Shown piece by piece: positions 36,385-43,335 of a DNA stretch of 64,000 bases. The position numbers and the translations under genes were made by a program. The notes under the pieces were generated by a model that worked only from the letters and a program-made list of their open reading frames with translations, was not told where the DNA came from and did no database searches. The stretch covers positions 5,146,001 through 5,210,000 of the forward strand of contig NZ_CP063458.1 of the NCBI RefSeq assembly GCF_015169395.1. Direction: 5' to 3'. How positions within the stretch are numbered: position 1 is the first letter of the stretch; every line of letters starts with the position of its first letter. Source of the DNA: Humisphaera borealis (lineage in GTDB: Bacteria > Planctomycetota > Phycisphaerae > Tepidisphaerales > Tepidisphaeraceae).

Positions 36385-36432
36385 TGCGACGACTGAGACC
36401 TGCGGATGAGCCCCTTTCGTCGTCCGCTTTAA

Positions 36433-36543
36433 ACACGAAGGTCACGAAGGCACGAAGCTCACGAAGAGTCAATGCACGATTCGATCTTGGGCACACTCCA
36501 TCATTTTTCCTTCGTGACCTTCGTGCCTTCGTGAGCTTCGTGT
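36433..36543. repeat. 34-bp inverted repeat, class B (CACGAAGG words)
   Basis: Arms 36433-36466 (ACACGAAGGTCACGAAGGCA start) and 36510-36543 are inverted with two mismatches. The spacer is 43 bases. Confidence 0.95.
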
Positions 36544-36619
36544 TGAAAACGGAGGACCAGAGGCGTTCATCCGCCGGTGGCAGCGACAGTTTCGGAACAG
36601 CTACGAGCCTCGCCCCAGA

Positions 36620-36672: not shown

Positions 36673-37041
36673 TTGCGATTCACCGCGGTCATTCTCCTGC
36701 TCCTGGGCGTTGTCGCCGCCGGCACCGGCGCGGTAGCGCACCTGCACCGCGCCCAACACGCCACCAACGCACACCATCACCACGACGATCACCGTCACGT
36801 CGAACATGACGACGACGGCGACCATGACAACGCATGCCACGAATTGACCGCTGACGTCGGCGACCATGACGGCCACTGCCAGACCTGCCTTGATCTGTTG
36901 TTCCGCGTAGTCATCGCGGATGCCGCTCCGCCGACCGTCGCCTGCCGTGCCGCCGCCGTCGGGCGGCTCTCGCTCGAGTGGCAGGTTTTCGTCGTCGCCA
37001 TTCCCCTTTGCATCGATTCGACGGGTCCGCCCGTCTCCTGA
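36673..37041 (+). CDS. Small secreted His/Asp-rich protein (candidate metal-binding)
   Basis: The 122-residue product has a signal peptide (~1-22) followed by a segment with 14 His in about 46 residues (AHLHRAQHATNAHHHHDDHR, HVEHDDDGDHDNACHELT, DVGDHDGHCQTC). A CxxC pair (HCQTC) ends this segment, and a less conserved tail follows. The composition predicts binding of zinc, copper or nickel in the periplasm. It stands first in a same-strand run with a porin and a zinc-type ABC transporter, so a zinc chaperone or sponge is the best guess. The start is TTG, without a strong ribosome binding site. Not a recognised family; it resembles short His-rich proteins often encoded near Znu genes. Confidence 0.72.
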   Translation: MRFTAVILLLLGVVAAGTGAVAHLHRAQHATNAHHHHDDHRHVEHDDDGDHDNACHELTADVGDHDGHCQTCLDLLFRVVIADAAPPTVACRAAAVGRLSLEWQVFVVAIPLCIDSTGPPVS

Positions 37042-37181
37042 AGAGCATCTCTTTTGCCGTGAATCCGAGACAAATCCCCGTCGGATTCAGCCGGTGCGTT
37101 CTGTTCGACATCTCGTCTATCGCCGTGGCACAGGCTTCCCGCTTGTGTTGCGTCGTGCTCTTCCCATTCTGCAGGAGACCC

Positions 37182-38558
37182 ATGCGCCTCGACATTCCAA
37201 GGCTTCGCGGCCTGACCGCCGCGATCGCTCTGCTCTTTGCGTCACCTTCTATTTCTCCGTCTGTTGCCCAGGAGACCAACCCATCGTCCGACGACCGTAT
37301 CAAGCGGCTCGAACAGCGGTTCGAGCAGATGGAGAAAGACCTCAAGTCCCGTGAGGCCGAGATCGCTCGCCTGCAGGGCGAACTCGAGAAACGTCCCGCG
37401 GCCGCCCCGGCCACCCAGCCCTCTGTCGATGAAATCGAGAGAACCCGGCAGGACATTCTCGGCGACATCGACAAGCGAAAGGCCGACCCTTTTTCGCTGC
37501 GAATGCCGGCGGATTTCAATCCGAATATCGCAGTGATCAGCGATTTCATCGGCAACTACTCGTCCAACCGCAAGAACGATGCGCTCAACCGATTCGACGT
37601 CCGCGAGGTGGAGCTCGACTTCCGCGCCGCCGTCAGCCCCAATGCCGACGGCGTGCTGATCCTGGCGTTCGAGCGCGACGCCGAGAACCCCGTCTTCCCC
37701 GAAGGCGAACCACTCGAAGGGCCCGAGGGGTCGGTCAACATCGAAGAGGCGTACCTCAATCTGCACGACTTCGGCGTGCCGAATCTGCAAGCCAAGATCG
37801 GCCGGTTCCACGTTCGGTTCGGCCGGCAGAACATGCTGCACCTGCACGACCTGCCCACCAGCGATCCGCCGCTGGTCAATCAGGCGTTCCTGGCTCCCGA
37901 GGCGCTGACCGACGGCGGCATCTCGCTGAGCTATCTGTTGCCGCCGTCGCTGACCGGCGGACAGGCGATCGAAGTAATCGGCGAAGTGCTCGCCGCCGAG
38001 GGCGCCGGCAGCGAGTCGGCGACACTTACCGGCGATATCAACGTCGACTCGCCGGCGTTCAACGTCCACGCCCTTTGGAATACCGACATTTCCCCGGAAT
38101 GGAATTTTGAGCTCGGCGGTAGTTTCCTCACCGGCCCGCGCGGGCCGGACAACAGCCAGCGGGCAAACCTCTACGGCGTCGATGCCACACTGCTTCGTCG
38201 CGATCCGACCGGTGGGTTTAAGAACACGCTTCTCCAGTCGGAGTTCATGTTCGGAGATCTCGACCAGGTCGACGGAACCAGCAGCCAGTCGTGGGGTGCC
38301 TACGTGCTGGCGCAACAGCAGATCGACCGCGACTGGTTCTTCGGGCTGCGGCTCGACTACACCCAGGACCCCAATGACGACAAGGCCGAGGCCTTCGGCT
38401 TCTCGCCGTACGTCAGTTGGTACTGGACCGAGTTCCTGCGATTCCGCCTTCAGTACCAGTACAAAGCCGGTGACGTGCCGACCGAGAACAACGTGTACTT
38501 CCAGCTCACCTGGCTGTTCGGCGCGCACCCGGCCCATCCGTACTGGGCGATGCGATAG
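37182..38558 (+). CDS. Outer-membrane porin-like protein with N-terminal coiled coil
   Basis: This 458-residue protein has a signal peptide (~1-30, ending VAQ), then a coiled coil (~38-75: RIKRLEQRFEQMEKDLKSRE, AEIARLQGELEKR), then a beta-barrel-like region with alternating hydrophobic strands (VREVELDFRAAVSP, FFGLRLDYTQDPN, LRFRLQYQYKAGD), ending with VYFQLTWLFG. This resembles SlyB/OprP-like porins and the OMP genes that often adjoin ZnuABC. The coiled coil may contact peptidoglycan or trimerise the porin. ATG 37182 has AGGAG upstream. Position between the His-rich gene and znuA suggests metal import through the outer membrane. Confidence 0.82.
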   Translation: MRLDIPRLRGLTAAIALLFASPSISPSVAQETNPSSDDRIKRLEQRFEQMEKDLKSREAEIARLQGELEKRPAAAPATQPSVDEIERTRQDILGDIDKRKADPFSLRMPADFNPNIAVISDFIGNYSSNRKNDALNRFDVREVELDFRAAVSPNADGVLILAFERDAENPVFPEGEPLEGPEGSVNIEEAYLNLHDFGVPNLQAKIGRFHVRFGRQNMLHLHDLPTSDPPLVNQAFLAPEALTDGGISLSYLLPPSLTGGQAIEVIGEVLAAEGAGSESATLTGDINVDSPAFNVHALWNTDISPEWNFELGGSFLTGPRGPDNSQRANLYGVDATLLRRDPTGGFKNTLLQSEFMFGDLDQVDGTSSQSWGAYVLAQQQIDRDWFFGLRLDYTQDPNDDKAEAFGFSPYVSWYWTEFLRFRLQYQYKAGDVPTENNVYFQLTWLFGAHPAHPYWAMR

Positions 38559-38654
38559 GCCTTCGCGAAGAAGGAGAGTGGACGCTAGGTCGGCCGCCGT
38601 GCCTCCGTGGTGCTCCCCCTCGCTACAACCGCAGAAATCTCAAAAAGGAATGAC

Positions 38655-39557
38655 ATGAAATCAACACTGCTGACGCTCCTCGCCGTCATCGCATTCGCCG
38701 CTTCGCCGGCGAGTGCCAAGCTCAAGATTGTCACTACCACGCCCGACTTTGCCGACCTTGCACGGCAGATCGGCGGCGATCGCGTGGAGGTGCATTCGGT
38801 CATGAAAGGGCCGGAGAATGTTCACAATGTCCTCGCGTCGCCGCCGGAGATGGTGAAGCTCAACCAGGCGGATTTGTTCGTCCACAGCGGCCTCGATACC
38901 GAGCCCTGGCGCGACAACCTGTTGCGTGGGGCGCGCAATCCGCGGCTGGCCGCGGGCAAGCCGGGCAATGTCGATATGAGCGCCGGCATCGAGCTGAAGG
39001 ACGTCCCCACCGGCCGCGGAGATCGTGCCCAGGGCGACATGCACGCCTACGGCAATCCGCACTTCACACCGCACCCGCTCAATGCGCAACGCATGACTGC
39101 CACGCTCGCCAAGGCGATGATCGCCGTCGATCCGCCGAACGCAGATCTGTATACGCAGAACGCGAAGAAGCTGGTCAATGACCTCGCCGACACGGCCAAG
39201 TGGATGAAAGAGCAGATGGCCCCCTTCGGCGGGCTGAAGGTAGTGACTTTTCATCAGGCTTGGCTGTACTTCGCCGAGTCCGCGGGTCTGAACATCGTCG
39301 GCACGATCGAGCCCAAGCCGGGGATCACGCCGTCGGCGGCTCAGGTGGCGCAGCTCATCGCGACGATGAAAGCACAGGGAGTGAAGCTGGTAATCGTCGA
39401 GACTTACAACGACGAAAAGCTTGCCGCGAGAGTCGCCGAGGCGGCGGGGGCGAAGCTGCTTCGGCTGCCCGATCACGTGAACGGCGTTCCCGAGGCGAAA
39501 AGCTATCAGGAGCTGTTCCGGTACAATGTCGGGAAGATTGTCGAGGCGGCGAAGTAG
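38655..39557 (+). CDS. Metal ABC transporter substrate-binding protein, ZnuA/TroA type
   Basis: The 300-residue product has a signal peptide (MKSTLLTLLAVIAFAASPAS) and the TroA-superfamily fold: KLKIVTTTPDFADLARQIGG, the metal ligands His57 (GPENVHNVLASP), His136 (AYGNPHFTPHP) and His200 (VVTFHQAWLYF), and a fourth acidic ligand probably in IVETYNDEK. The His-rich loop found in many ZnuA proteins is absent; a separate His-rich gene upstream could take its place. ATG 38655, with AAAGGAA upstream, is chosen over the longer frame. Zinc is the likeliest ion, but manganese cannot be excluded. Confidence 0.93.
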   Translation: MKSTLLTLLAVIAFAASPASAKLKIVTTTPDFADLARQIGGDRVEVHSVMKGPENVHNVLASPPEMVKLNQADLFVHSGLDTEPWRDNLLRGARNPRLAAGKPGNVDMSAGIELKDVPTGRGDRAQGDMHAYGNPHFTPHPLNAQRMTATLAKAMIAVDPPNADLYTQNAKKLVNDLADTAKWMKEQMAPFGGLKVVTFHQAWLYFAESAGLNIVGTIEPKPGITPSAAQVAQLIATMKAQGVKLVIVETYNDEKLAARVAEAAGAKLLRLPDHVNGVPEAKSYQELFRYNVGKIVEAAK

Positions 39558-39859
39558 CCGAAAGGCGAACCCTCTTCAGGAGGACGGACATTCCTGTCTG
39601 TCACTCGGGCGAGGAGGATTTTCGAACTTCGGCACGCTTCTTCGGTGGGGCAGACATTCTTGTCTGCCTCGGACACGGTACGCCGTGTCCGACTCAACTG
39701 GGCCGGATCGATGTGCTTCGGACGGATGGGTACATCCGTCCGAGGCAGACAAGAATGTCTGCCCCACCAGAGCGCAGCCGAAGGTTCGACAGATCTTCCT
39801 CGGCCCGGGTGACAGACAAGTGCGTTCGTCCCCCCTCAGTTCACCTCTCCAGGATCTCC
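39558..39859. other. znuA-znuC gap filled by nested repeat
   Basis: The 302-base gap is occupied by the repeat at 39596-39818 and shows no gene. The ABC ATPase start follows, with AGGA at 39851-39854. Confidence 0.75.
39596..39818. repeat. Nested inverted repeat with paired hairpins, family A4
   Basis: The inner arms 39644-39672 and 39740-39768 are exact 29-base reverse complements. Each contains the perfect hairpin GGCAGACATTCTTGTCTGCC. Two small hairpins (ACACGGTACGCCGTGT and GACGGATGGGTACATCCGTC) lie between them. An outer, imperfect pair (TGTCTGTCACTCGGGC near 39596; GCCCGGGTGACAGACA near 39803) surrounds the whole. Confidence 0.95.
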
Positions 39860-40591
39860 ATGCCGCTCGTTCAACTCAACAACGCCAGCTTCGGCTACCG
39901 CCGACGGTCGGTGATCGCCGGCGTTTCGTGCGTTGTTGAAGCGGGGCGGTGCTTGGGCATCTACGGCCCCAACGGCGTCGGCAAGTCCACGCTGCTCCGT
40001 GGGATGACCGGGCTTCTTGCGCCGCTGACAGGCACAGTCGATGTCGCCCCCGGCATGCGGTTCGGCTATCTGCCGCAGCAGCGGGCCGGCGAAAGCCATT
40101 GGCCGATGACCTCACTCGACGCCGCGAGCATGGCGATCTCTGCGCAGGCGCGGTTTGGCTTCCTCCGGGGACGGCAGGAACGCGTCCTCAGTCGGATGGA
40201 CGAACTCGGTGTCGTCGAACTGGCCGGCCGGCCGTTCTTTCAGTTGTCGGGCGGGCAACAGCAGCGGGTGCTACTGGCCGGCGCGTTTGCCGCCGACCCT
40301 TCAGTCCTCGTGCTCGACGAACCAATGAGCGGCGTTGACGCGGGCGCCCGGGAACTGCTGATCGAGCACCTCCAGCGTGCCAAGGCGAACGGCCTGGCGA
40401 TCCTGATCGTCAGCCATGACGTCGCGGACCTGCTTGCGCTGGCGGATACCGCGCTCCTGTTGGAACCAGCGGCAGACGCCGGCAAACCCTCGCGGGGAGT
40501 GTCGATCGCCGCCGACGACATCGTCTCCCGTCTGACCGCCGGCCGAAGCGGTTTCAACCGGCAGCCGGCGTGGCAGGGGGCTGCGTCATGA
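39860..40591 (+). CDS. Metal ABC transporter ATPase, ZnuC type
   Basis: The 243-residue ATPase has Walker A GPNGVGKST (~36-44), signature LSGGQQQR, Walker B VLVLDEPMSGVD, and H-loop ILIVSHD. The GYLPQQR segment after a short variable region is typical of manganese/zinc ABC ATPases (ZnuC/MntB). It powers import together with the ABC-3 permease, whose ATG overlaps its stop. The start is ATG 39860. It lies 302 bases from the ZnuA gene across a large repeat, so it may have its own transcript or depend on read-through. Confidence 0.94.
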   Translation: MPLVQLNNASFGYRRRSVIAGVSCVVEAGRCLGIYGPNGVGKSTLLRGMTGLLAPLTGTVDVAPGMRFGYLPQQRAGESHWPMTSLDAASMAISAQARFGFLRGRQERVLSRMDELGVVELAGRPFFQLSGGQQQRVLLAGAFAADPSVLVLDEPMSGVDAGARELLIEHLQRAKANGLAILIVSHDVADLLALADTALLLEPAADAGKPSRGVSIAADDIVSRLTAGRSGFNRQPAWQGAAS

Positions 40592-41511
40592 GTGGCTCCA
40601 TCGGCGACGGTTCCCTGTCGAGTTATTACTGGCCGATCATCCAGCTCTTCGCCCCGGCGATCATCACCGGGCTGGCGATGGCGGCTTCCGGCGCGAGCAC
40701 CGGTGTGTTGCTTTTGCTTCGGCGGGAAGCCCTGCTGGCGCTGACCCTGCCGCAGGTCGTCGTACTCGGGGCGGCGTTCGGGCTGCGCTACCTGGCGTTC
40801 GACGACTCCGCCGAGCCATCGCCGACGGCACAATGGCTTATCGATCACACGGGCTGGCCGACACTCCCCGGCGCGGTGATTGCCGTTGTGGCGGCGCTGC
40901 TGCTGACGGCGGCGGCGCGAGTTCGCCGGGGCGAGTCGGCGGCGTCGTCGCGGTCGGGTATCGTGCTGCTTCCGTCGCTGTTCGTGGGCGCGATCTGCGC
41001 CGCCGTGCTGGTGGTCGCCGGTGGCGGCAATCATCTGATCGACGTACAGAATCGCTTCGTCGGGGCGGACATCGCTGTGGACGTACACCTGGCCGAGATC
41101 TCAACGACGGCGCTGCTGGCGTGCGGACTGGTTGCGGCCCTGCTCTGGCGACGCTGGCTGCTGATGGCCCAGGCACCGGGCATCGCCCGCATTGCCGGGC
41201 TTCGGCCGGCGCTATGGGACGGCGGGTTCCTTCTACTACTGGCGACCATCATCCTCGTCGGCACGAATGCTTTGGGGGCGGTGATGGTACTTTCGCTGCT
41301 CTTTCTGCCGGCGGCGACAGTGCTCCCCTGGTGCCGTCGCGTGCCCACCGCGATGATCGCCGCCACGATCCTGTCCCTCCTGCTCTACGCCGGAGGATTC
41401 CTGCTCTCAAACGCCGAAGGCTTCAACTGGCCGCTCAGCCATACCGTTGGCGGAATGGGACTGACGGTCTTTATCCTCTCGTACCTCCTGTCGCTTGTTC
41501 TGACTTCGTGA
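40588..41511 (+). CDS. Metal ABC transporter permease, ZnuB/ABC-3 type
   Basis: This 307-residue membrane protein has about eight helices and the ABC-3 family pattern: PAIITGLAMAASGASTGVLL near the N-terminus, REALLALTLPQVVVLGAAFG (EAA-like coupling region), GLRPALWDGGFLLLLATIIL, and LGAVMVLSLLFLPAATVLPW. It pairs with the overlapping ATPase (4-base ATGA overlap) to import zinc or manganese. The internal segment between helices 4 and 5 is longer than in E. coli ZnuB (307 vs ~261 residues). The start ATG 40588 is set by the overlap. Confidence 0.92.
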   Translation: MSGSIGDGSLSSYYWPIIQLFAPAIITGLAMAASGASTGVLLLLRREALLALTLPQVVVLGAAFGLRYLAFDDSAEPSPTAQWLIDHTGWPTLPGAVIAVVAALLLTAAARVRRGESAASSRSGIVLLPSLFVGAICAAVLVVAGGGNHLIDVQNRFVGADIAVDVHLAEISTTALLACGLVAALLWRRWLLMAQAPGIARIAGLRPALWDGGFLLLLATIILVGTNALGAVMVLSLLFLPAATVLPWCRRVPTAMIAATILSLLLYAGGFLLSNAEGFNWPLSHTVGGMGLTVFILSYLLSLVLTS

Positions 41512-42887: not shown

Positions 42888-43335
42888 GACCTGTTGCGAC
42901 GCTTTCTGGGAACGCCGAGCTCCAGCTCGGCACCTCTAGGCTCGATTTCACCGCAACCTGGCTAAGGGTTAGCACCGGAAAGTCCGCATTCAACACGAAG
43001 ACACGAAGGGCACAAAGGGCACGAAGAAGCGGCCGAAAAGGCGCTGTTTACGACGGCTGGCCGATGTTGCTGATGTTCCCTCGTGGCCTTCGTGACTTCG
43101 AGCCTTCCTGCTGGAATTGTGGGGATTGAGCTCCAACCAACGAGACTTCGCTTAGCGGCATCGGGTGCCACGGGTCGGCGGTACTCCGCAGACCCGTGCG
43201 CGGGTCACGTCGTCCGCACGGGTCTCTGGAGTACCAGCGACCCGTGGCACCAACTTGCGTGCCGAGGCACCGTTTGTATCCCTGCCCCTCGCGGCTCGAT
43301 TGTATTCAGATCCCGGCGTCCCCTATGCTTCCCTT
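42888..43335. other. Intergenic region with two repeat elements
   Basis: This 448-base gap holds a weak class B inverted repeat (about 42991-43102: CACGAAGACACGAAGGGCAC against CCTCGTGGCCTTCGTGACTT) and the family A5 element at 43164-43251. No gene is seen. Confidence 0.7.
43164..43251. repeat. Paired-hairpin element, family A5, copy 2
   Basis: Arms 43164-43200 and 43215-43251 (37 bases each) are inverted with four mismatches. Each arm folds on itself; the left one has stem GGGTC/GACCC around GCGGTACTCCGC. The spacer is only 14 bases. Confidence 0.93.

Follow-up and report, generated by a model that had tools for sequence, protein, structure and literature searches.

We have analyzed a 64,000-nucleotide stretch of the Humisphaera borealis genome (contig NZ_CP063458.1, positions 5,146,001 to 5,210,000; "the window" below), which is a 7.19-Mb genome in a single contig. 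Five genes follow one another on the forward strand of this window, encoding a small His-rich protein predicted to be exported, a porin, a ZnuA-like substrate-binding protein (SBP), an ABC ATPase and an ABC-3 permease (Table 1). The initial annotation had listed the genes in this order, and open reading frames (ORFs) and Pfam matches agree with it, supporting an operon for ZnuABC-type uptake of a metal. The cluster of 14 His followed by CQTC that it had described in the first gene is likewise borne out by the translation. This first gene, whose TTG start was inferred by aligning relatives, probably encodes a CruR-type leader of a porin, SBP and ABC transporter operon that would import a metal, most likely zinc.

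Table 1. Features of the operon, in window coordinates
Feature	Position	Strand	Evidence or remark
Leader gene, 122-aa exported His-rich protein (stop included)	36673..37041	+	ORF; adjoins 5' side of porin gene, as in relatives
Codons 23-68, encoding 14 His (count made by eye on the translation)	36739..36876	+	Sequence
CQTC codons (C69, C72), presumed metal-sensing CxxC	36877..36888	+	CxxC in 60/65 leaders; invariant in alignment of relatives
TGPP codons (residues 117-120), at the R[AGS]PP position of relatives	37021..37032	+	Two codons ahead of stop
Leader-porin spacer, 140 nt, 9-bp hairpin at 37060-37089	37042..37181	+	z -1.9
Porin of 458 aa, with a coiled coil N-terminal to a 16-strand barrel	37182..38558	+	AlphaFold model; OprP/OprO-like fold; porin profile
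ZnuA-like SBP, 300 aa, without His-rich loop	38655..39557	+	PF01297, 2.9e-56; conserved H57, H136, H200, E249
ABC ATPase	39860..40591	+	PF00005, 2.5e-22; nearest NCBIfam model AztA, below cut-off
ABC-3 permease	40588..41511	+	PF00950, 1.8e-14; nearest NCBIfam model AztB, below cut-off

Conservation of the putative leader gene and its motifs

Relatives of the locus were gathered with the SBP and with a porin profile. The ZnuA-like protein had a match in 4 of 26 genomes of the family (E ≤ 1e-20) and in 26 of 397 genomes of the class (E ≤ 1e-30). Within the phylum, the porin profile matched 146 of the 392 genomes sampled (E ≤ 1e-20), and loci were taken from the best 30 of these 146 matches; it also returned 26 named loci on genome contigs, some of which are contigs already in the sample. 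The record labels of these 26 loci are Phycisphaerales, Phycisphaerae, Planctomycetota, Myxococcales, Polyangiaceae, Deltaproteobacteria, Desulfuromonadales, Nitrospirae, Omnitrophota, Poribacteria and Oligoflexia, labels that may be wrong for metagenome bins (L060 and L061 share one leader under two phylum names). After removal of identical leader ends and of loci short of upstream DNA, 65 loci were kept. The leader ORF of each was picked by its hydrophobic segment, CxxC and His, the C-terminus not being used. Another 20 loci were drawn from weaker porin matches, those with little upstream DNA being avoided.

The leader is the first gene of the operon, with a median spacer of 97 nt to the porin gene in relatives. 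The SBP gene lies directly downstream in 61 of the 65 loci, none being seen within the stretch examined in the other four, and was found downstream in 19 of the 20 extra loci. The His-rich gene and the porin, on whose conservation next to znuA the initial annotation had staked its proposal, do stay together with it in relatives. An ATPase cluster was present in 9 loci, as against 31 with the permease; many relatives of the operon, among them L038, L039, L047, L054, L060, L063, L064 and L066, carry leader, porin, SBP and permease, with no ATPase gene in the stretch examined. Used alone as a query, the leader gave no match in 25 other genomes of the family or in plasmids, and a related leader used as query likewise had no match in plasmids; the kin of the leader became visible only through porin synteny.

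Within their last 25 residues, a few codons ahead of the stop, 60 of the 65 non-duplicate leaders, from several phyla, carry R[AGS]PP. The variants are RAPP (33), RGPP (18), RSPP (9), TGPP (the window) and QSPP (L074), with none of these in L072, L099 and L103. Two of the 60 motif-bearing leaders, L069 and L075, are truncated by a contig edge. By comparison, R[AGS]PP was present in 37 of 5,214 other segments of at least 50 residues from both strands of the same loci (0.7%), and residue shuffling of the leaders gave an expectation of 0.28 in 65. The 65 loci are partly dependent, forming 41 clusters by leader similarity; in 36 of these clusters all members carry the motif. The 20 extra loci yielded R[AGS]PP in 12 and, counted by eye, RPPP in 6, with neither in L132 and L150. 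The leaders of L134-L138 and L142, which belong to one planctomycete family, end in IRPPP. According to passages of two studies, arrest by ApdA and ApdP partly tolerates replacement of the Ala with Pro (PMC12992588, PMC10987492); passages of the former describe RAPP and RGPP as arresting ribosomes in other peptides and as avoided in proteomes.

The second conserved element is CxxC, found in 60 of the 65 leaders. Its distance to the C-terminal motif is 41-47 residues in 59 of these 60, with 35 residues in one locus and a median of 44, which is also the value in the window. The linkers of exactly 44 residues (n = 25) share a mean pairwise identity of just 0.10. Such a fixed length with free sequence would be expected, given the length of the ribosomal exit tunnel, if CxxC must sit just outside the tunnel with the motif at the peptidyl-transferase center. 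The number of His is variable, ranging from 3 to 16 over 58 leaders, 50 of which have a His no more than 8 residues ahead of CxxC in a loose H-D-x3-CxxC pattern. In the window leader, the maximal 15-residue hydropathy is 2.6 and the model places a helix at residues 2-32, a predicted export segment; apart from this helix and a short one after CxxC, no fold is predicted (pLDDT 67). What led us to regard the small protein as a regulatory leader is that CxxC, its spacing of about 44 residues and R[AGS]PP near the C-terminus are conserved while the number of His is not, together with the scarcity of predicted fold.

Kinship with nascent-chain sensors and proposed mechanism

The closest counterpart is CruR of Bordetella pertussis (Bp2923, DUF2946/PF11162). 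As described in passages of its report (PMC9426467), CruR is likewise a small exported protein encoded first in a metal-uptake operon, and has a CxxC, a similar distance (45 residues vs about 44), a C-terminal RAPP-type motif and a long spacer before an outer-membrane gene. It differs in being a copper sensor that precedes a TonB-dependent transporter, whereas here a 16-strand porin and a ZnuA-like ABC system follow; more His stand ahead of CxxC here, and the copy in the window reads TGPP and does not match DUF2946 significantly. A DUF2946 match at E ≤ 0.01 was obtained for 17 of 60 leaders of relatives, the best reaching 2.5e-6, and one porin-linked leader, that of G078, passes the family cut-off (24.5 vs 23.7 bits). 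The genome of the window has no DUF2946 match at E ≤ 0.001. At L126:1848-4542, in the same family as the window, an RGPP leader precedes a TonB-dependent receptor and not a porin, as in CruR. In Pseudomonas aeruginosa, N-acetylcysteine raises PA0433 (DUF2946) together with PA0434, a TonB-dependent receptor; passages of the study read this effect mainly as zinc starvation, and the two genes are not marked there as part of the Zur regulon (PMC9431628). PA0433 is perhaps another leader of the CruR-like kind.

In the model set out in those CruR passages, without copper the ribosome is stalled on RAPP, Rho is kept off and the downstream transporter is expressed, whereas copper at CxxC relieves the stall; adding five residues strongly reduced copper control (PMC9426467). 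CutF of Rhodobacter capsulatus works differently as far as the passages of its report go: it has CxxxC, and copper enhances a stalling-like process and induces a multicopper oxidase, opening of the downstream start site having been proposed (PMC9973294). ApcA, ApdA, ApdP and SecM share the C-terminal RxPP-type motif in small exported upstream ORFs; they differ in monitoring protein export and controlling sec/yidC, and the passages describing them mention no metal-binding CxxC (PMC12992588, PMC10987492).

By analogy, a ribosome translating the leader studied here would stall on reaching the C-terminal R[AGS]PP, placing CxxC, usually with its preceding His, about 44 residues back and just past the exit tunnel. 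With no metal, the stall would persist and keep the downstream genes on, either by blocking Rho or by opening the RNA around the porin start. Metal bound at the CxxC/His site would release the stall and switch uptake off. Of this scheme, the order of the genes and its conservation, the motif and the constant distance are observed, whereas stalling, the sensing of metal, zinc as the metal and the direction of the switch are inferred. The spacers are more structured than their shuffles (mean z -1.9, with 33 of 55 below -1.5), and masking the footprint of a stalled ribosome increased the openness of the start by +0.066 on average, vs 0.015 in shuffles (p = 0.006). RNA opening was set aside as a general mechanism, the average effect being weak, with many loci, and the window too, showing none. 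With an effect so weak and patchy, Rho control and RNA opening both remain candidates.

Transporter, porin and candidate metal

The SBP scored 191.3 bits against PF01297 (cut-off 29). Its H57, H136, H200 and E249, which we take from known families to bind the metal, are invariant in 11 of 11 SBPs (the window and 10 relatives). The initial annotation was right that the protein lacks a His-rich loop, which is also missing in the 10 aligned relatives; such a loop is not universal among ZnuA-type SBPs. The SBP, ATPase and permease belong to the same families as those of AztABC and ZnuABC, with AztA, AztB and AztC as nearest NCBIfam models. All three are below the equivalog cut-offs (for AztC, NF040870, 132.1 bits vs 350), there is no AztD-like chaperone among the five genes, and the porin and the leader are additions here. 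The second-best model of the SBP after AztC is MntC of Deinococcus. The third ligand position of the SBP is His, as in 1pq4, a zinc-uptake component, and unlike in MntA 5hx7. In L066, a ZIP gene and a Fur-family gene stand upstream of the leader. Taken together, the PF01297 match, AztC as nearest model, the third-ligand His and the ZIP and Fur-family neighbors suggest zinc as the likeliest metal.

The Zur box that the initial annotation proposed to look for was not found upstream of the leaders. Seven Fur/Zur-type patterns, drawn from known families, were run on 61 regions upstream of leaders; six gave no match and the TGCAA type gave two (L037 and L106). Gapped palindromes in the same 61 regions showed no shared half-site above shuffles; a site of another type may have escaped these scans. 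The genome does have two Fur-family genes, neither of them tied to the operon. The promoter scan found none, one terminator-like site was obtained vs 0.5 expected, and Rfam gave no match.

The porin, modeled with 55 relatives (pLDDT 86.8), begins with a coiled coil (helices 36-70 and 82-99) that leads into the barrel, confirming the coiled-coil porin of the initial annotation. Against Pfam it matched just BBP2 at 5e-4, below the cut-off. The best solved fold was OprP, superposed over 293 residues at an rmsd of 2.6 Å (VIA-align Z 28.0, 15% identity), and the DcaP porin gave Z 23.8; the predicted likeness to OprP is one of fold and does not demonstrate function. Two His, H220 and H449, are present in every one of the 56 porins, within LHxHD and GxHPxHPYW motifs, and may point to a path for the metal.

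The ATPase and permease genes overlap, and the 302-nt gap between the SBP and ATPase genes holds REP-like repeats. These form an inverted pair of the palindrome GGCAGACATTCTTGTCTGCC at 39644-39768. The genome has 43 sites of this palindrome (≤2 mismatches), frequently paired in opposite orientation at a spacing of about 100-150 nt; the reversed control pattern had none. Just upstream of the leader, at 36393-36583, lies an inverted repeat with 74-nt arms that are 84% complementary, made of CACGAAGG-type units, of which a weaker opposed pair is found at 43002 and 43078.

Alternative explanations and significance

The initial annotation had read the small protein as a periplasmic carrier replacing the His loop of ZnuA and handing zinc from the porin to ZnuA. 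The 14 His in 46 residues and the conservation of the gene beside porin and SBP fit such a relay, and passages of PMC8456098 discuss a periplasmic protein rich in His for PA4063-PA4066. We nevertheless find the proposal improbable. The number of His falls to 3 in relatives while CxxC, its distance to the C-terminus and R[AGS]PP persist; no fold is predicted past the two helices; the aligned SBPs have no His loop even where the leader is His-poor; and passages on CruR and CutF describe the one as thought to be short-lived (PMC9426467) and the other as quickly degraded (PMC9973294). PA4063, a precedent for a His-rich protein of the periplasm encoded in a zinc operon, does leave room for an additional, second role. 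More improbable still is that the C-terminal RxPP serves as a signal for protein sorting or processing. Its place at the extreme C-terminus of an exported protein would suit such a signal, whereas the fixed distance to CxxC across unrelated sequence, and the identity with proteome-avoided motifs that passages of PMC12992588 describe as proven to arrest ribosomes, argue for arrest. Several findings weigh against a CruR-type leader. R[AGS]PP is missing from 5 of 65 loci (the window, L072, L074, L099 and L103) and from 2 of the 20 extra ones (L132 and L150). The window leader matched no Pfam family above cut-off, nor PF11162 at E ≤ 1, and masking by a stalled ribosome changed the openness of its porin start by -0.06, with no opening. 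It also has Thr in place of Arg, as the only TGPP among the 65 loci. Arg was irreplaceable in ApcA, ApdA and ApdP in passages of PMC12992588 and PMC10987492, and the R139A+A140S change in CruR abolished downstream expression as described in part of PMC9426467. Arrest in the genome of the window is therefore doubtful; either it was lost or the organism's own ribosome accepts TGPP. Loss through the Arg-to-Thr change, leaving a decaying or constitutive remnant while relatives still use their leaders, is a substantial possibility, if one we would not favor. The leader is otherwise intact, with its export helix, CxxC, 44-residue distance and PP two codons ahead of the stop; TGPP has served as a RAPP-like query because it recurs in short exported upstream ORFs of a single order, and in some peptides the first residue of QAPP or of HAPP is important for arrest, as far as published passages describe.

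Another reading keeps the same arrest leader with a different metal sensed and transported, be it copper, manganese, nickel/cobalt or iron. The characterized relatives CruR and CutF sense copper in the passages cited (PMC9426467, PMC9973294), CutF-like proteins beside HupE/UreJ hint at nickel/cobalt, and PF01297 takes in binders of Mn and Fe, with the MntC model placed next after AztC. Such a metal is rather unlikely in our view, in the light of the third-ligand His, the AztC best match and the ZIP and Fur-family neighbors in L066. The genome has a second ZnuA-like system, at L005:6531-9861, near a DtxR-type repressor (PF02742, PF01325, FeoA), which is the likelier system for Mn or Fe. Despite that repressor, the SBP of this second system carries the same third-ligand His, a point against a firm call for zinc here; we have therefore dropped this His as proof of zinc. 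A CruR-type leader of an operon for a metal, most likely zinc, remains the probable interpretation.

The mechanism class is already known, from the copper leaders CruR and CutF and from the export monitors, and a published survey has covered RAPP/RGPP leaders that precede metal genes (passages of PMC12992588). The words zinc, porin and substrate-binding are absent from the main text of that survey, and its supplementary lists of gene classes could include porins or zinc SBPs. A zinc-responsive arrest leader, or a zinc-uptake system under such a leader, was not found in the open-access PMC papers searched. What appears new, judged from those searches, is the leader with a porin and ZnuA-like operon and with zinc as candidate ligand. 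A wider proposal, to which we give slightly less than an even chance, is that porin-type zinc import across Planctomycetota, Myxococcota, Omnitrophota and other phyla is governed by a zinc-sensing nascent chain, which is read out as its CxxC/His site exits the ribosome and which replaces Zur or acts beside it.

If true, this would be a post-transcriptional zinc switch not described in the open-access papers searched. It would take nascent-chain metal sensing beyond copper, to zinc-type uptake and to porins, and would make such sensing a common control in phyla where little is known of how zinc is regulated. The fixed distance over random sequence would offer dozens of natural rulers for the metal-triggered release of arrest, and the TGPP of the window a direct test of whether Arg is always required. 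For small His/Cys proteins that resemble periplasmic metal carriers, it would suggest a likely function.

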